Positions 19,817 through 37,764 of a DNA stretch of 64,000 bases are shown here, one piece after another. The stretch comes from Fermentimonas sp. (GTDB taxonomy: Bacteria; Bacteroidota; Bacteroidia; Bacteroidales; Dysgonomonadaceae): contig JAQVXD010000006.1 of NCBI GenBank assembly GCA_028709385.1, positions 30,083 to 94,082 of the forward strand. The letters run 5' to 3'. Position 1 is the first letter of the stretch. Each line of letters begins with the position of its first letter. The notes under the pieces were generated by a model. That model ran no database searches, had not been told where the DNA came from, and worked only from the letters and a program-made list of their open reading frames with translations. The translations under genes and the position numbers were made by a program.

Positions 19817-19847
19817 TTGCATTTTGTTTTTTGATAGTATACATTTG
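19817..19847 (+). promoter_or_regulatory. Candidate Bacteroidetes promoter driving trp leader
   Basis: TTG 19817-19819, 20-nt spacer, TACATTTG 19840-19847; predicted start lies just upstream of the leader ORF. Confidence 0.7.
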
Positions 19848-19868
19848 CAACGAAATATTAGAAAATAT

Positions 19869-19925
19869 ATGAATATACTTTTAAACGGATATTGGTGGCG
19901 TTTCTTACAACTCAAAAAGTCGTAA
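19869..19925 (+). CDS. trpL: Putative trp leader peptide MNILLNGYWWRFLQLKKS with tandem Trp codons
   Basis: ATG AAT ATA CTT TTA AAC GGA TAT TGG TGG CGT TTC TTA CAA CTC AAA AAG TCG TAA; between promoter and intrinsic terminator upstream of trpB. Confidence 0.75.
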   Translation: MNILLNGYWWRFLQLKKS

Positions 19926-19971
19926 GGAAGAGCAGCTATGTCTTGAATTAAATATATACACAAAATAATTT

Positions 19972-20013
19972 AAAGAGCCTGTCGCAATCCTGCGACAGGC
20001 TCTTTGAGTTTTT
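19972..20013 (+). terminator. Intrinsic terminator/attenuator upstream of trpB
   Basis: Perfect 15-bp stem AAAGAGCCTGTCGCA-ATCC-TGCGACAGGCTCTTT followed by gagTTTTT. Confidence 0.85.
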
Positions 20014-20138
20014 AGGGTGGTTTGTAAACTTCAATTGAGATAATAAACTATCATCTTAAAAAACAGAACATCAGTTAGGATTATAGAAAACAGGGTAATA
20101 AAAATTATAACCAGAGAGCAAATAAAAAATATAGCAGT

Positions 20139-21326
20139 ATGAAACAGTATTCAGTAGACGAAAGTGGTTATTACGGTGAATTTGGAGGAGCATATATTCC
20201 GGAAATTCTCCATAAATGCGTTAATGACCTCGAGAAAGCATATCTTCCAATAATTGAAAGCAGACAGTTTCAGCGTGACTTTAGCCAACTTCTTCATGAT
20301 TATGTTGGGCGACCGTCACCTTTATACCTTTCGAGACAACTGTCAGAACGTTTCGGGGCAAAGATATATCTTAAAAGAGAGGATCTGAACCATACAGGTG
20401 CTCATAAAATAAATAATACAGTTGGTCAGATACTGATTGCCAGAGAGATGGGTAAGACTCGTATTATTGCAGAGACCGGTGCCGGTCAGCATGGTGTGGC
20501 AACAGCGACTGTATGTGCTCTTATGCAGATGCCCTGTACTGTTTATATGGGTGAAACGGATGTTAAGCGTCAGCAGGTAAACGTGAAAAAAATGGAGATG
20601 CTGGGGGCAAAAGTTGTCCCGGTTACTTCAGGAAATATGACTCTTAAAGATGCTACAAACGAGGCAATTAGAGACTGGTGCAGTCATCCCACAGACACTC
20701 ATTATATAATTGGATCTGTTGTTGGGCCTCACCCTTATCCTGATATGGTGGCTCGTTTGCAGTCGGTCATCAGTAAAGAAATCAAAGTACAGCTAACCGA
20801 AAAAGAGGGTAGGGATTATCCCGATTATCTTATTGCATGTGTGGGCGGAGGCAGTAATGCAGCCGGAACAATTTACGAGTATCTTGATAATGATAAGGTT
20901 AATATTGTTCTTGCTGAAGCCGGCGGTAAAGGTGTTGATAGCGGTGAAACGGCAGCTACAATACATCTTGGTAGTCAAGGTGTTTTGCATGGATGCAGGA
21001 CTCTTCTGATGCAGACTGAGGATGGACAGATTACTGAACCATACTCTATTTCAGCGGGATTGGACTATCCGGGGATTGGACCGATGCATGCTAATCTGGC
21101 TGTGCAAAATCGTGCTCAGGTAATTGATATTAACGACGATGAAGCACTGAAGGCTGCCTTCGAACTGACACGTAACGAAGGGATTATACCTGCACTAGAG
21201 TCGGCGCATGCTTTGGCGGCTTTAGAGAAGATAAAATTTAAACCTGAGGATATTGTAGTACTTACTCTTTCCGGTAGAGGTGATAAAGATCTTGACACCT
21301 ATTTTAAATATGAGGGACAATATTAA
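20139..21326 (+). CDS. trpB: Tryptophan synthase beta chain
   Basis: GEFGGAYIPEIL, LKREDLNHTGAHKINN, ACVGGGSNAAGTIY, GRGDKD. Confidence 0.98.
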   Translation: MKQYSVDESGYYGEFGGAYIPEILHKCVNDLEKAYLPIIESRQFQRDFSQLLHDYVGRPSPLYLSRQLSERFGAKIYLKREDLNHTGAHKINNTVGQILIAREMGKTRIIAETGAGQHGVATATVCALMQMPCTVYMGETDVKRQQVNVKKMEMLGAKVVPVTSGNMTLKDATNEAIRDWCSHPTDTHYIIGSVVGPHPYPDMVARLQSVISKEIKVQLTEKEGRDYPDYLIACVGGGSNAAGTIYEYLDNDKVNIVLAEAGGKGVDSGETAATIHLGSQGVLHGCRTLLMQTEDGQITEPYSISAGLDYPGIGPMHANLAVQNRAQVIDINDDEALKAAFELTRNEGIIPALESAHALAALEKIKFKPEDIVVLTLSGRGDKDLDTYFKYEGQY

Positions 21327-21366
21327 TTCGTCCCCGTTATTGATACACAAAAAAATAATTACAGGT

Positions 21367-22773
21367 ATGCAATATAAATATCAAACAAACAGCAAGAAAA
21401 TAATGGGAGATCTTCACACTCCGGTAAGTATCTACCTTAAAGTAAGGGATTCATTTCCACAGTCGGCCCTACTTGAAAGTTCCGATTTTCATGTCAATGA
21501 AAACAGTATCTCTTATCTTGCTCTTAAGCCGATGGCTCGTGTAGAGATAAACAGAGGTGTCTGCACTATGCAGTTTCCCGATGAAGCTGAAGATAGCAAA
21601 CCGCTTACTGAGAACTTTACTATTTCTGATACTTTAAGTGGATTTATTAGAAGATTTGAAGTGACTGGCAACGAAAATGGCAATATTGGTCTGTTTGGAT
21701 ACACTACCTTCAAGTGTGTGAAGTACACCGAAAACATTAATATCAAAGAGAGCAAAGAAGAGCGTAATGATGCTCCTGACTTGTTGTATATTCTTTACAA
21801 ATATATATTGGTTTTCAATCATTTTACAGATGAGATCACTTTGATAGAATTACAGGGTGAAGACGAAATGAGCAGTCTGCATAAGGTAGAGTCGCTTATA
21901 AACCAGCGTAATTTTGCCAACTATAACTTTTTTACAGAGGGTGATGAGTACAGCACCATTTCAGACGACGAATATAAAAAGTTTGTGAAAGCCGGTGTTG
22001 AGCATTGCAAGAAAGGTGACCTGTTTCAGATTGTACTTTCACGGAGATTTGTTCAGCCTTTCTCAGGCGATGACTTTAAAGTTTATCGTGCACTACGTTC
22101 CATTAACCCGTCTCCTTATCTTTTTTACTTTGATTTTGGAGGGTACCGTATTTTTGGGTCATCTCCTGAAACGCATTGTAAAATAGACGGAAAGCGAATA
22201 AGCATAGATCCGATAGCAGGGACTACTAAACGAACGGGTAATTATCATCAGGATATGGAGGGTGTGAAATTTCTTCTAAATGACCCGAAAGAGAATGCTG
22301 AGCATGTAATGCTGGTTGATCTGGCACGAAATGATTTGAGCCGAAATGCTCATAATGTAGAGGTTGAATTTTTCAGGGAACCCCAGTTTTATTCTCATGT
22401 AATTCACCTTGTATCACGTGTAAGCGGAATACTTAATGATGATGCTTATCCTATTAAAGCCTTTTTCGACACATTTCCAGCAGGTACTTTGTCGGGTGCT
22501 CCAAAAGTGCGTGCCATGCAGCTTATCTCGGAAATAGAAACACATAACCGGGGTGCTTATGGCGGGTGTATCGGTTTTATAGGAATGAACGGGAGTCTGA
22601 ATCAGGCTATTACTATACGTACTTTTGTCAGCCGTAACAACGAATTATGGTATCAGGCGGGAGCGGGAATTGTCTCTCAAAGTAATGAGGAGTATGAGCT
22701 GAACGAGGTGAACAGTAAGCTTGATGCACTTAAGCTGGCTATAGATAAAGCTTCTGCACTCTATAATTCTTAA
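21367..22773 (+). CDS. trpE: Anthranilate synthase component I; ORF open from 21280, ATG at 21367 likely start
   Basis: ILGDLHTPVSIYLKVRD-like N-term (IMGDLHTPVSIYLKVRD); FGSSPETHCKI; PAGTLSGAPKVRAMQ; YGGCIGFIGMNG. Confidence 0.96.
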   Translation: MQYKYQTNSKKIMGDLHTPVSIYLKVRDSFPQSALLESSDFHVNENSISYLALKPMARVEINRGVCTMQFPDEAEDSKPLTENFTISDTLSGFIRRFEVTGNENGNIGLFGYTTFKCVKYTENINIKESKEERNDAPDLLYILYKYILVFNHFTDEITLIELQGEDEMSSLHKVESLINQRNFANYNFFTEGDEYSTISDDEYKKFVKAGVEHCKKGDLFQIVLSRRFVQPFSGDDFKVYRALRSINPSPYLFYFDFGGYRIFGSSPETHCKIDGKRISIDPIAGTTKRTGNYHQDMEGVKFLLNDPKENAEHVMLVDLARNDLSRNAHNVEVEFFREPQFYSHVIHLVSRVSGILNDDAYPIKAFFDTFPAGTLSGAPKVRAMQLISEIETHNRGAYGGCIGFIGMNGSLNQAITIRTFVSRNNELWYQAGAGIVSQSNEEYELNEVNSKLDALKLAIDKASALYNS

Positions 22774-22804
22774 CAGAGGTTCTCAACTATATAACATTAT
22801 AAAG

Positions 22805-23377
22805 ATGAAGACAAAAAAAATACTTCTTTTCGATAATTACGACTCATTCACATATAACTTGGTTCATGCTATTAAATCGCTGGGATATAGCGAGGTGGAC
22901 GTAATACGTAATGACAAAATAGATCTGCCCGGTATCAATCAGTATGACAAAATTATTCTTTCACCCGGACCCGGTCTCCCTGAGGAAGCAGGTATAATGC
23001 TTGAGCTTATAAAAGAGTTTAAGGAAAGAAAGAGTATACTTGGTGTTTGCCTCGGGCATCAGGCTATAGCTGAGGTGTTTGGTGCAAAACTGGTTAATAT
23101 ACCTAACGTATTTCACGGGGTACAAACACCAATAAAAATAGTAGGGAGTGATTATATATTTAAGGGATTGCAGGAAAAGATCCTTGCAGGTCGTTATCAT
23201 TCATGGATAGTATCAAAAGAGAATTTTCCGGGAGATCTTGTTATAACTGCTGAAGATGATGCCGGAGACATAATGGCGCTTAAACATAGGGAGTTTGATC
23301 TTCACGGGGTGCAGTTTCATCCGGAATCAATTCTCACTCCCGAGGGAATAAAAATTATTAATAACTTCTTAGAATAA
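22805..23377 (+). CDS. trpG: Anthranilate synthase component II (glutamine amidotransferase)
   Basis: LLFDNYDSFTYNLVHAI; SPGPGLPEEAG; GVCLGHQAIAE; HGVQFHPESILTPEG. Confidence 0.97.
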   Translation: MKTKKILLFDNYDSFTYNLVHAIKSLGYSEVDVIRNDKIDLPGINQYDKIILSPGPGLPEEAGIMLELIKEFKERKSILGVCLGHQAIAEVFGAKLVNIPNVFHGVQTPIKIVGSDYIFKGLQEKILAGRYHSWIVSKENFPGDLVITAEDDAGDIMALKHREFDLHGVQFHPESILTPEGIKIINNFLE

Positions 23378-23389
23378 AGGTTTCACAAA

Positions 23390-24385
23390 ATGAAAGAAAT
23401 ACTTTATAAGCTCTTCGATTATAACTATCTCACCCGCGAAGAGGCCAAACAGGTACTTATTGATATTGTAAACGGTGGTATACCCGAAACGCAGATAGCT
23501 TCACTTATAACCTCTTTTTTAATGCGCAGTATTTCTGTTGATGAAATACTCGGATTCAGGGATGCTCTTCTTGAAATGCGTGTAACGGTAGATTTATCTG
23601 ATTATTCTCCTTTGGATATTGTTGGAACCGGTGGAGATGGGAAGAATACATTCAATATATCTACTACAGCATGTTTTGTGGTTGCAGGTGCCGGTTATAA
23701 CGTGGTTAAACATGGTAATTACGGAGCCACATCAATTAGTGGTGCCAGTAATGTAATTGAACAACAAGGTGTGAAATTCAGTGCAGATAATGATCTGTTA
23801 CGCAAAAGTCTGGATGCATGTCATATTGCTTATCTGCATGCTCCGCTGTTTAGTCCTGCACTTAAAGCTGTTGCTCCGGTGAGAAAAAGTCTGGGTGTAC
23901 GAAACTTTTTCAATGTACTGGGGCCGCTTGTGAATCCTGTACAGCCCGAATATCAGATGCTCGGGGTGTATGATCTGGCAATGTCACGACTTTACAGCTA
24001 TATCTATCAGGAAGAAAACAAGAAGTTCTCGATAGTACATAGTATGGATGGTTATGATGAGGTATCTCTGACCAGTCAGTTTAAAGTAGTATCAAACCGC
24101 GGGGAACAACTTTTTATACCTGCCGATCTTGGGTTTAGAAGAGTTAATCAGGAAGAACTGTATGGAGGTGATACTCCTGAAGATGCTGCAAAGATATTCA
24201 GGAATGTGATAAGTGCAAATGCAGAAGATGCTCAGATGAATGTAGTGCTTGTAAATGCTGCTTTTGGAATACAGACCATCGATCAGGATAAAACAATAGA
24301 CGATTGTCTTGAGATTGCACGTGATTCACTTTATGGAAAGAAGGCTCTTAAAGTGTTGGATAAATTTGTAGAAATCAATAGTTGA
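23390..24385 (+). CDS. trpD: Anthranilate phosphoribosyltransferase
   Basis: DIVGTGGDGKNTFNISTT; KHGNYGATSISGASNVIE. Confidence 0.97.
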   Translation: MKEILYKLFDYNYLTREEAKQVLIDIVNGGIPETQIASLITSFLMRSISVDEILGFRDALLEMRVTVDLSDYSPLDIVGTGGDGKNTFNISTTACFVVAGAGYNVVKHGNYGATSISGASNVIEQQGVKFSADNDLLRKSLDACHIAYLHAPLFSPALKAVAPVRKSLGVRNFFNVLGPLVNPVQPEYQMLGVYDLAMSRLYSYIYQEENKKFSIVHSMDGYDEVSLTSQFKVVSNRGEQLFIPADLGFRRVNQEELYGGDTPEDAAKIFRNVISANAEDAQMNVVLVNAAFGIQTIDQDKTIDDCLEIARDSLYGKKALKVLDKFVEINS

Positions 24386-24435
24386 ATTAGTTTAAGTTTG
24401 AGATGCTGACAGGATAAACTTGAATATGAAAAATT

Positions 24436-25230
24436 ATGAAAGATATTTTAAGCGAGATAATAGCACATAAAAGAATAGAAGTTGAACGACAAAAAAGAGT
24501 GGTGCCTTTTACAGAACTGGAGAGGCAGCTCTCGCAAAATGAGGGAATTGCATTCCATTCTTTAAAGGAATCACTCGAGAGATCAAAAACAGGTATAATT
24601 TCGGAGTTCAAACGACGCTCACCGAGTAAGGGTTGGTTGCATCAGGATGCTGATATAGATTTTGTTACAAAAGAGTATGAGTTGGCAGGCGCCTCTGCAC
24701 TGTCTGTACTAACAGATGAGAAATACTTTGGAGGTACTCTTAATGATTTAAAAACTGCAACTAAAAACGTTCAGATACCTGTTATGAGGAAAGAGTTTAT
24801 AGTTGATGAGTATCAGATTTATGAAGCAAAACTGGCAGGTGCAAGTGCAATTTTATTAATTGCAGCTGCAATAACAACCGAGGAGTCGAAACGATTTACT
24901 GAACTTGCCAGTCAGCTGCAGCTGGATGTCCTCCTGGAGCTGCATGATCAGAAGGAAACAGATTATATAACACCGCTTAATAGTGTGATAGGTGTCAACA
25001 ACAGGAATCTGGGCAGTTTTGTAACCGATTTGCAGAAGTCTTTTCGTATGGCGGAACTCCTTCCGAAAGATGCAGTATGGGTTTCAGAGAGTGGTATCTC
25101 TGACGCAGGTGTTGTAAAAGAGTTGAGGGATGCAGGTTATAAAGGTTTTCTTATCGGTGAATACTTTATGAAGTCTGGAAGACCTGGAGAAAGATTGCGA
25201 GATTTTATTCAACAGATAGAAACTGTTTGA
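24436..25230 (+). CDS. trpC: Indole-3-glycerol phosphate synthase
   Basis: ISEFKRRSPSKGWL; ALSVLTDEKYFGG; RKEFIVDEYQI; IGVNNRNLGSF; SESGI. Confidence 0.97.
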   Translation: MKDILSEIIAHKRIEVERQKRVVPFTELERQLSQNEGIAFHSLKESLERSKTGIISEFKRRSPSKGWLHQDADIDFVTKEYELAGASALSVLTDEKYFGGTLNDLKTATKNVQIPVMRKEFIVDEYQIYEAKLAGASAILLIAAAITTEESKRFTELASQLQLDVLLELHDQKETDYITPLNSVIGVNNRNLGSFVTDLQKSFRMAELLPKDAVWVSESGISDAGVVKELRDAGYKGFLIGEYFMKSGRPGERLRDFIQQIETV

Positions 25231-25289
25231 TGTTTATAGATTATAAGCCTGATTATAAGGTTAATTGAAACATTATAAACCGTTAAATT

Positions 25290-25901
25290 ATGATTATCAA
25301 AGTATGTGGAATGCGTGACGAAGAGAATATTCTGCAACTTGAGCAGCTGGATATCGATTGGATGGGATTCATATTCTACCCTGATTCGCCACGTTATGCG
25401 GGGAATAAGGTGAAATACCTGCCAAGAAAGATTAAAAAGATTGGTGTGTTTGTAGACCAGAATCCTCAGATTATTCGTGACCGTGCAAAAGATAATCACC
25501 TCTTTGCAATTCAGTTGCATGGCAGTGAGCCGCCGTGGTATTGTATTAATTTACGCGAAGAGGGTTATAAGGTGATTAAATCATTCGGGATTGAGAAAGA
25601 TGGTTTCATACCAAAAGCACAACTCAATGCTTACGAAGGCAAATGCGACTATTATCTTTTTGATACAAAAACAGACCTTTATGGCGGTTCAGGTAAGAAA
25701 TTCAATTGGAGCAGACTGGCTGATTATGATGGCGAAACGCCTTTTATTTTAAGTGGCGGTATTTCTCCTGAAGATGCTGAGGAGATAAAATCCTTTAGTC
25801 ACCCTAAGTTTGTGGGAATAGATATTAACAGTCGTTTTGAAGTTTCTCCTGCAATCAAGGATAATGAAGCAATAGAATCTTTTATAAAACAATTAAGATA
25901 A
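25290..25901 (+). CDS. trpF: Phosphoribosylanthranilate isomerase
   Basis: IIKVCGMRDEENI; DWMGFIFYPDSPRY; QLHGSEPPWYC; GGSGKKFNWS; LSGGISPEDA. Confidence 0.95.
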   Translation: MIIKVCGMRDEENILQLEQLDIDWMGFIFYPDSPRYAGNKVKYLPRKIKKIGVFVDQNPQIIRDRAKDNHLFAIQLHGSEPPWYCINLREEGYKVIKSFGIEKDGFIPKAQLNAYEGKCDYYLFDTKTDLYGGSGKKFNWSRLADYDGETPFILSGGISPEDAEEIKSFSHPKFVGIDINSRFEVSPAIKDNEAIESFIKQLR

Positions 25902-25973
25902 AAAAAGTACGTAGCAATCGGTTGATTGTAACAATAAATGAAGAATATAAATATTAGAATACTAAATATAAAA

Positions 25974-26750
25974 ATGAACAGAATTGATAAACTATTTCAG
26001 GAAAAGGAAAACAATATTTTGTCTGTATATTTTACAGCAGGTTACCCTAAACTTGATGATACCGTTAAAGTGATTCAGTCACTTGAAAAGAATGGAGTAG
26101 ATATGCTTGAAATAGGTGTACCTTTCAGCGACCCGATGGCAGATGGTCCGGTAATACAGTCATCAGGTTCACAGGCACTAAAGAATGGTATGAGTCTGAA
26201 AGTTCTCTTTGACCAGTTGTCTGATATCAGACGAACAGTATCTATCCCCCTGGTCCTGATGAGTTATCTTAACCCGATTATTCAGTTCGGATTTGAAAAC
26301 TATTGCCAGAAAGCAGTGAAATGCGGAATAGACGGATTAATAATACCTGATCTTCCATTTGCTGAGTATAAGGAGGACTATAAACCGATTGCAGAAAAAT
26401 ATGGTTTGCACGTCATTATGCTGATTACTCCTGAAACTTCAGAAGAGCGAATCAAGCTAATCGACCAAAACACATCAGGGTTTTTATATATGGTTTCATC
26501 TGCTTCAGTAACCGGTGCCAGGAACAGTTTCAGTGAAGATAATCTGGCTTATTTCCGCAGGGTGAATGAAATGCAGCTAAATAATCACAGGTTAATTGGC
26601 TTTGGCATATCTAATAAAGAGACATTTAAAGCCGCTTGTCGTGAAGCATCAGGTGCTATCATTGGCAGTAAGTTTATCTCATTACTTGGCAGTGAAGAAT
26701 CGATTGATGAAGCCGTAAAACAATTAATTATTTCTATAGATCCAAAGTGA
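25974..26750 (+). CDS. trpA: Tryptophan synthase alpha chain; ORF open from 25938, ATG at 25974 likely start
   Basis: YFTAGYPKLDDT; LEIGVPFSDPMADGPVIQ; IPDLPFAEY; GFGISNKE. Confidence 0.97.
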   Translation: MNRIDKLFQEKENNILSVYFTAGYPKLDDTVKVIQSLEKNGVDMLEIGVPFSDPMADGPVIQSSGSQALKNGMSLKVLFDQLSDIRRTVSIPLVLMSYLNPIIQFGFENYCQKAVKCGIDGLIIPDLPFAEYKEDYKPIAEKYGLHVIMLITPETSEERIKLIDQNTSGFLYMVSSASVTGARNSFSEDNLAYFRRVNEMQLNNHRLIGFGISNKETFKAACREASGAIIGSKFISLLGSEESIDEAVKQLIISIDPK

Positions 26751-26789: not shown

Positions 26790-26830
26790 CAGATTATTTG
26801 TTATTGAATCCGAAAAACGAACTACATTTT

Positions 26831-27715
26831 ATGCCACTCCAATCGCATGTTGGTGAAATTGCATCACTATTGACGGCTGTTTGCTGGACCTTTAGTGCCA
26901 TTTACTTTGAGAAAGCAGGCAGAAGAGTTGGATCTTTGTCTGTAAATATTATTCGTATATTTCTTGGAGTTATTTTCTTGGGCATCACAACTTTATTCAC
27001 CCGCGGAATGTTTTTTCCGATGGATGCCACCCCTTATAACTGGTTATGGTTAGGGCTTTCGGGCATTGTTGGTTTTTTTCTTGGTGACCTCTTCCTGTTC
27101 AAATCTTATACTATAATCGGTTCCCGTACTTCGCAGCTTATCATGAGTCTTGCTCCAATGATTACTGCAATTATTGGATGGTTTTTTCTTCATGAGATAC
27201 TTTCTATCAAGAGTATAATAGGAATAATTGTGAGCGTAGCAGGAATAATGATAGCTGTTGCAGGGAAAAAACTTAAACTGAATATGCCTGTCAAAGGATT
27301 TATGTACGCTTTGGGTGGTGCGTTGGGACAGGCTGTCGGACTTATTCTCAGTAAAAAAGGTATGGGCGATTATGATGCAATTGCATCCACTCAGATTCGT
27401 GCAATATTTGGATTTGCAGCATTCGCGATACTTGTGACATTTGCGAAAAGATGGAGGCGGGTGATCCTCACCACAGGAGATAGAAAAAGTATGAGTATTA
27501 TCACTATTGGAACAATATTTGGACCTTTTATCGGGGTTTCTCTTTCTCTTTATGCTGTTCAGCACACTGAAACAGGAATAGCTTCTGCACTTATGGCGCT
27601 TACTCCTATCTTTATTATTGTACCGTCTGCAATTATGTTTAAAGAAAAAATCACTGCCCCCCAGGTAATTGGGGCAGTGATTAGTATAGTAGGTGCTTCG
27701 ATTTTCTTTATTTAA
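26831..27715 (+). CDS. EamA/DMT family transporter; ORF open from 26798
   Basis: About ten TM helices in two repeats; ATG at 26831 (MPLQSHVGEIASLLTAVCWTFSAIYFEKAG). Confidence 0.9.
   Translation: MPLQSHVGEIASLLTAVCWTFSAIYFEKAGRRVGSLSVNIIRIFLGVIFLGITTLFTRGMFFPMDATPYNWLWLGLSGIVGFFLGDLFLFKSYTIIGSRTSQLIMSLAPMITAIIGWFFLHEILSIKSIIGIIVSVAGIMIAVAGKKLKLNMPVKGFMYALGGALGQAVGLILSKKGMGDYDAIASTQIRAIFGFAAFAILVTFAKRWRRVILTTGDRKSMSIITIGTIFGPFIGVSLSLYAVQHTETGIASALMALTPIFIIVPSAIMFKEKITAPQVIGAVISIVGASIFFI
27649..27682. repeat. Perfect 12-bp inverted repeat near 3' end of EamA coding sequence
   Basis: AATCACTGCCCC (27649-27660) - 10 nt - GGGGCAGTGATT (27671-27682). Confidence 0.85.
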
Positions 27716-37038: not shown

Positions 37039-37764
37039 ATGTCACGCAAAATAATTCTAACGTTCTCTCTGTTTTGTCTGCTTATGTCTACACAGGCACA
37101 GAATCTTCAGTTGCATTTTGATCCGCGAAGTTCACTCTATAGAGATGAGGTCTCCGGTGTTAATTATCTGACCGCGACATTTGAATTTTACAAACCAGAC
37201 CAGTGGGGTAACACATTCATGTTTGTGGACTTCGATTTCAGCTTTAACAAAGGTAATCCCGGATTAATATATGGCGAAATTGCGAGGGAGTTTAAAATTG
37301 GTGATTTTCCTCTTCTCCCGCACATTGAATATAACGGAGGTTTGGGTCTGGTAAGAGGTACAGGCTCAGGTTTCTCAATTCCCGGTGCATATCTTGCAGG
37401 TTTTGGATATCCGTTTCAATTGGGTAATTTTTATATGAATACATATCTTGCGTATAAACTAAACGCATTCGAACAGGCTAGTAATGATGTCCAATGGACA
37501 GTTACCTGGAATGCTTCCCTGGCGGGGAACAAGATCTCCCTGGGAGGATTTATGGACCTATGGACCGAAGACAAATCATTCACAGAAGGCAATGATGCAA
37601 GCGGTAAGAAGGTAGTCTTACTGAGCGAACCACAAATTTGGTTCAATATCACACCCAACTTTGCACTGGGAAGCGAAGTGGAATTGAGCTATAATTTTGT
37701 GAATAAATTTGCCGAGAGTAAGCTTTACGCCATACCTACCCTGGCAACTAAATGGATTTTCTAA
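37039..37764 (+). CDS. DUF5020 family outer-membrane-type beta-barrel protein
   Basis: Signal peptide; LQLHFDPRSSLYRDEVSGVNYLTATFEFYKPDQWGNTFMFVDFDF; C-terminal aromatic residue. Confidence 0.8.
   Translation: MSRKIILTFSLFCLLMSTQAQNLQLHFDPRSSLYRDEVSGVNYLTATFEFYKPDQWGNTFMFVDFDFSFNKGNPGLIYGEIAREFKIGDFPLLPHIEYNGGLGLVRGTGSGFSIPGAYLAGFGYPFQLGNFYMNTYLAYKLNAFEQASNDVQWTVTWNASLAGNKISLGGFMDLWTEDKSFTEGNDASGKKVVLLSEPQIWFNITPNFALGSEVELSYNFVNKFAESKLYAIPTLATKWIF

Follow-up and report, generated by a model that had tools for sequence, protein, structure and literature searches.

A Bacteroidota trp leader in which region 2 probably pairs with the terminator loop and 3' strand as antiterminator

Attenuation in response to Trp is the classic textbook example of an RNA switch. 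In Escherichia coli trpL and other leader-peptide attenuators, tandem Trp codons, a hairpin between regions 1 and 2 (1:2) and a terminator formed by regions 3 and 4 (3:4) precede the first trp gene, and in trpL the antiterminator takes the 5' strand of the terminator (2:3). A non-canonical antiterminator has been proposed for the ilv-leu leader of Staphylococcus aureus, where it binds the poly-U tail and leaves the terminator stem-loop intact (PMC5794164). In Bacteroidota, the Bacteroid-trp motif (Rfam RF01692) received its name from Weinberg et al. (2010; PMC2864571) and has been assumed to be a leader-peptide attenuator. Later work on Flavobacterium psychrophilum took it to be trpL-like (PMC6414381), and a Flavobacterium transcriptome gave hints of leader-peptide attenuation 5' of amino-acid operons (PMC9723704). 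No description of the switching pairing for Bacteroid-trp was found in the open-licence literature.

The trp leader and its operon

Here, we have analyzed the leader of a trp operon in a stretch of 64,000 nucleotides from Fermentimonas sp. (contig JAQVXD010000006.1, positions 30,083 to 94,082; hereafter the window). An original prediction had proposed that this leader attenuates the trp operon by way of a leader peptide with tandem Trp residues. Its features are as follows:

19817..19847, + strand: promoter, with a -33-like TTG (19817-19819), a 20-nt spacer and the -7 element TACATTTG (19840-19847); from sequence
19847..19983, + strand: match to Rfam RF01692, Bacteroid-trp (cmscan 50.5 bits, gathering threshold 49)
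19869..19925, + strand: leader ORF of 18 amino acids, MNILLNGYWWRFLQLKKS, with stop codon UAA at 19923-19925; base-by-base sequence check
19893..19898, + strand: regulatory codons TGG TGG (tandem Trp); sequence
19901..19908 and 19922..19929, + strand: small hairpin, TTTCTTAC with GTAAGGAA; sequence
19904..19912, + strand: region 1, CUUACAACU, partner of region 2 in the 1:2 hairpin; pair counts and ensemble fold
19919..19928, + strand: region 2, GUCGUAAGGA, which spans the stop codon, putative antiterminator strand; complementarity tests
19972..19986, + strand: region 3, the terminator 5' arm AAAGAGCCTGTCGCA, part of a perfect 15-bp stem; sequence
19988..19996, + strand: region 4, the loop UCC and UGCGAC of the 3' arm; complementarity and ensemble fold
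19991..20013, + strand: terminator 3' arm TGCGACAGGCTCTTT (19991-20005) and T-run (20009-20013); sequence and fold
20139..21326, + strand: trpB, first gene of trpBEGDCFA (20139-26750); NCBIfam TIGR00263, 582 bits

A base-by-base check found the promoter, the tandem-Trp ORF, the small hairpin and the 15-bp terminator exactly where the original prediction had placed them, and the operon order assigned by NCBIfam (trpB, E, G, D, C, F, A) agreed that trpB comes first. TAnnTTTG is the -7 element of Bacteroides, and TACATTTG fits it. The terminator hairpin has the loop ATCC, and its stem is followed on the 3' side by GAG and then by five T residues; the fold of the leader region had a z-score of -6.8. 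Directly 3' of trpA and on the same strand lies a gene for a DMT-family transporter (26798-27715), for which the best NCBIfam match was TIGR00950, below the cut-off, and YddG, an exporter of aromatic amino acids, matched more weakly. This gene may be a member of the trp operon.

The leader element itself is already known. Comparison with the Rfam trp leader models, a check proposed with the prediction, returned RF01692 above its gathering threshold, and the window has the trpBEGDCFA genes downstream, the consecutive-Trp ORF MNILLNGYWWRFLQLKKS and relatives within Bacteroidota that go with this family. No T-box was found among the Rfam matches of the window up to E=10. The trp genes downstream, the Trp-codon leader ORF and the 1:2 hairpin are shared between RF01692 and the window. 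However, the RF01692 model stops inside the terminator 5' arm and hence lacks both the terminator hairpin and a pairing of region 2 with region 4 (2:4), both of which are described here for the window. As far as the open-licence literature shows, the 2:4 switch architecture is apparently an undescribed variant. A second, weak match to a model of the leader plus terminator was located elsewhere in the same genome (contig C58, 3470-3580; 38.1 bits, E 6.8e-4), and may be an unrelated terminator.

Three mutually exclusive pairings in homologous leaders

Within the window's family, 56 out of 101 genomes had an RF01692 match, as did 39 out of 394 sampled from its order and 42 out of 398 sampled from its phylum; all of these counts are lower bounds because the search was sampled and filtered. 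From these matches, and from trpB loci retrieved solely on protein similarity, 134 distinct leaders were collected. Each has two or three consecutive TGG codons and a terminator, and the next trp gene was trpB in 97 and trpE in 37; inspection removed chance WW ORFs, two of them within coding sequence (L129 and L152) and a further four from the later set. The alignment of relatives that had been suggested as a check thus yielded a WW mini-ORF and terminator conserved 5' of trp genes. In addition, 100 of the 134 homologues carried TAnnTTTG no more than 60 nt 5' of the leader ATG, against 9.8 expected from shuffled sequence. Comparative evidence and RF01692 membership together support the reading of the locus as a tandem-Trp attenuator.

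Across the 134 leaders, the region 2 consensus GUCGURAG is complementary to the terminator loop and the top of the 3' strand. Duplex z-scores, measured against dinucleotide shuffles, had a mean of -2.64 for the post-Trp segment with the loop and 3' arm (73% of leaders below -2), but of 0.05 for the same segment with the 5' arm (1% below -2) and of 0.16 for the whole leader with the 5' arm. It had been suspected, from the lack of a canonical antiterminator for the 5' arm, that the switch might be non-canonical, and these values support that suspicion. When partners were permuted among 69 distinct terminators, the native mean was reached in none of 2000 permutations, and the leaders fetched after the 2:4 idea had been formed gave a z-score of -2.29 (n=49). 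The helix of the window joins 19988-19996 to 19919-19924 and 19926-19928, with A19925 bulged out. The original prediction had also offered a specific pairing, that of AAGAGC...GTC (19928-19942) with the 3' arm. It is present only in close sisters (for example, L019) and is lost where terminators lack GAGCC, and was rejected as the switch pairing; the conserved alternative begins about 10 nt 5' of this segment.

The window therefore resembles trpL in its tandem-codon ORF, its 1:2 hairpin and its intrinsic terminator before the first gene, whereas its antiterminator would take the loop and 3' strand. Since the test for 2:3 pairing was negative, the window leader is a variant rather than a textbook trpL attenuator. 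For the S. aureus ilv-leu leader, likewise a leader-peptide attenuator, the proposed antiterminator also acts 3' of the terminator 5' strand (PMC5794164), but there the poly-U tail is sequestered, whereas in the window the target would be the loop and the 3' strand of the stem.

The 1:2, 2:4 and 3:4 helices are mutually exclusive. In an alignment of 69 leaders, 84.6% of the cells were paired for 1:2 (covariation 0.316 versus 0.191 when shuffled), 89.1% for 2:4, with two-sided changes at seven of eight pairs, and 97.0% for 3:4, in which all 10 pairs showed changes on both sides. The covariation scores of all three helices exceeded all 500 shuffles. Sliding the 2:4 partner by one to three columns reduced pairing to 52% or less. 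The loop bases are unpaired in 3:4, yet they match region 2.

Considering the relatedness of these leaders, we examined how many changes underlie the 2:4 pattern. On the TrpB and TrpE trees, the principal contrast within 2:4, A:U versus G:C, amounted to about three changes. Under a tree-based null with independent columns, 58 doubly changed 2:4 cells were observed against a mean of 9.7, which is above all 400 simulations, while the total of paired 2:4 cells (929 versus 877 +/- 40) did not clearly exceed this null, being above 367 of the 400 simulations, with 33 as high. Because cells are not events, divergent leaders were added and one leader was drawn per family-level group. These leaders came from a covariance-model search in which the structure held only 1:2 and 3:4, although its sequence profile still favours the consensus. 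With 40 groups and 20 draws, native pairing with the loop and 3' arm had a mean of -9.88 kcal/mol versus -7.43 (sd 0.34) after swapping, and none of 6000 permutations was as good as the native arrangement. Several divergent leaders carried re-matched 2:4 sequences, such as CGCUGUGA:UCACAGCG in L376, AACGUGA:UCACGUU in L368, GGGAUG:CAUCCC in L372 and CGUGAU:AUUACG in L364; a divergent match, UCGUGAAC:GUUCGCGA, was seen in L089.

Judged by mean z-score, 25 of the 40 groups favoured 2:4, six favoured the 5' arm with or without the loop, and nine favoured neither clearly. The window's own family (f1, 51 leaders) was clearly of the 2:4 type (z -2.7, versus 0.4 for the 5' arm). In another family (f122), WW or WWW trp leaders pair region 2 with the 5' arm (z about -4 in L382, L387 and L388, and -2.8 in L369), which suggests evolutionary switching between 2:3 and 2:4. 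His leaders served as a control. When hisG loci sampled across the phylum were screened in the same way, 29 leaders were found that combine a run of His codons with a terminator. Their mean z-score was -2.58 for 2:3 (72% below -2) and -0.18 for 2:4, so the test detects the textbook design where it exists. One of them, L212, lies in the window's own genome (contig C43; leader MKVKGFHHHHFQTCSQAR at locus position ~1327, 5' of hisG at 37421). It resembles the trp leader in having a leader peptide, here with a His run, and a terminator before the first gene, here hisG, but it uses canonical 2:3 pairing; thus, the two designs differ inside one genome. At ilvD, leuA and homoserine-dehydrogenase loci, where the fetched flanks were short, no similar leaders passed the filters.

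Folding of the emerging RNA and a candidate mechanism

The emerging RNA of the window and of 67 leaders was folded as an ensemble with assumed ribosome footprints, which took the place of single forced-state free energies because the latter were confounded by other pairings. With a ribosome on the Trp codons of the window, the probability of 2:4 was 0.99-1.00 as long as 1-3 nt were exposed 3' of G19994, the shared base, and 0.92 once a fourth was exposed. If the ribosome instead covered the stop codon, or was absent, the probability of 2:4 was 0.00 and the terminator formed; in the absence of a ribosome the probability of 1:2 was 0.93. For the stalled state, the mean over the 67 leaders was 0.85-0.90 at 1-4 nt exposed. 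Masking ribosome-covered segments, as had been recommended with the prediction, hence gave 2:4 only when the ribosome was stalled on the Trp codons. Once more than about 6 nt were exposed, the terminator won in every state, as it also did for the full-length RNA at equilibrium, so 2:4 must act kinetically if it acts at all. RNA polymerase encloses the last 8-14 nt of its transcript. When it reaches the T-run, no more than roughly the decisive length would then be exposed, and 2:4 could decide the outcome. In these folds, termination would be decided kinetically, while the 3' strand emerges.

The three exclusive pairings, their conservation and the state-dependent fold were shown computationally, and on this basis the leader is probably a ribosome-mediated trp attenuator in which region 2 makes the antiterminator by pairing with the terminator loop and 3' strand (2:4) rather than through 2:3. 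The sign of regulation would be the same as that of E. coli trpL. When charged tRNA-Trp is low, a ribosome would stall on TGG TGG, leaving region 1 mostly covered and region 2 free. The latter could then pair with the emerging loop, and subsequently with the top of the 3' strand, before 3:4 closes, and would have to hold until the termination decision to give read-through. When Trp is ample, the ribosome would reach the stop codon and occupy region 2, so that 3:4 could close and transcription stop. If the leader is not translated, region 2 would be held in the 1:2 hairpin and the terminator would again form.

We lean slightly toward a broader reading, in which the trp attenuators of Bacteroidota work as a kinetic switch with a loop toehold, the stop-codon segment using the loop and 3' strand to invade the terminator during the few nucleotides of transcription that precede hairpin closure, and in which homologous leaders have switched between 2:4 and 2:3 during evolution. 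If this is true, a phylum-wide antiterminator acts on the other strand of the terminator and the 5' strand need not decide attenuators; moreover, an antiterminator that wins only briefly during transcription would be a natural test of kinetic strand competition. The 2:4 pairing would supply Bacteroid-trp, known for 16 years, with a concrete mechanism that is testable in laboratory organisms such as Bacteroides and Flavobacterium.

Alternative explanations

Canonical attenuation of the E. coli type, with region 2 on the terminator 5' arm, is the textbook design and occurs in his leaders of the same phylum and in a few trp families, such as the f122 leaders L382, L387 and L388. For the window, however, neither its own family nor the 134 leaders as a whole offer an upstream complement of the 5' arm (the mean z-score of 0.05 given above), and we regard this reading as very improbable; as judged from sequence, 2:3 in the window is already refuted unless a tertiary or protein-assisted interaction is involved. 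It is a different matter if regions 2 and 4 have been kept only for 1:2 and 3:4, the complementarity between them being an ancestral accident and termination being controlled, by the ribosome or some other factor, without 2:4. Both 1:2 and 3:4 are conserved with covariation, and many of the compensatory 2:4 cells stem from few events, as this explanation would have it. On the other hand, loop bases without a partner in 3:4 match region 2, the family-level swaps never equalled the native pairing, and the pairing was re-matched in the divergent leaders L376, L368, L372 and L364. Taken together, we consider an accident of ancestry unlikely. Still less credit can be given to an ordinary terminator of the upstream gene combined with a chance WW ORF, which appears barely conceivable: a perfect hairpin and T-run between two same-strand genes would fit it, but a conserved promoter separates the upstream gene from the ORF, and RF01692 membership and phylum-wide conservation with trp genes also argue against it.

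Finally, the leader might encode a TnaC-like arrest peptide that senses free Trp, which would account for its QLxKS tail. This tail, followed by the stop codon, is indeed widely conserved among the aligned peptides, but its x residue varies freely, and it is the nucleotides that appear to be retained. The AGUCGURAG segment at the stop codon is conserved and fixed in position: for 92 of 122 leaders, the region 2 core begins at +28 relative to the first TGG. In 25 of these 122 leaders the stop codon is displaced to the 5' or 3' side of its usual site and the region 2 nucleotides are retained, for example in shifted frames ending QLKQVVRS (L041) or QLSKVVS (L065), or with a UAG before UCGUAAGG (L073), and likewise in L055 and L043. 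Because AGUCGURAG persists when frame or stop changes, region 2 appears to be selected as RNA and not as peptide. A peptide conserved independently of the RNA, as in a TnaC-like leader, was sought among these leaders and rejected, since the RNA sequence is kept despite variation in frame and stop; arrest by the peptide is accordingly a highly improbable explanation. The stretch AAGUCGUAA, found at 19918-19925 in the window and in its relatives, resembles the decoding region of 16S rRNA, presumably its universally conserved decoding-site stretch, and the resemblance was judged to be within chance.
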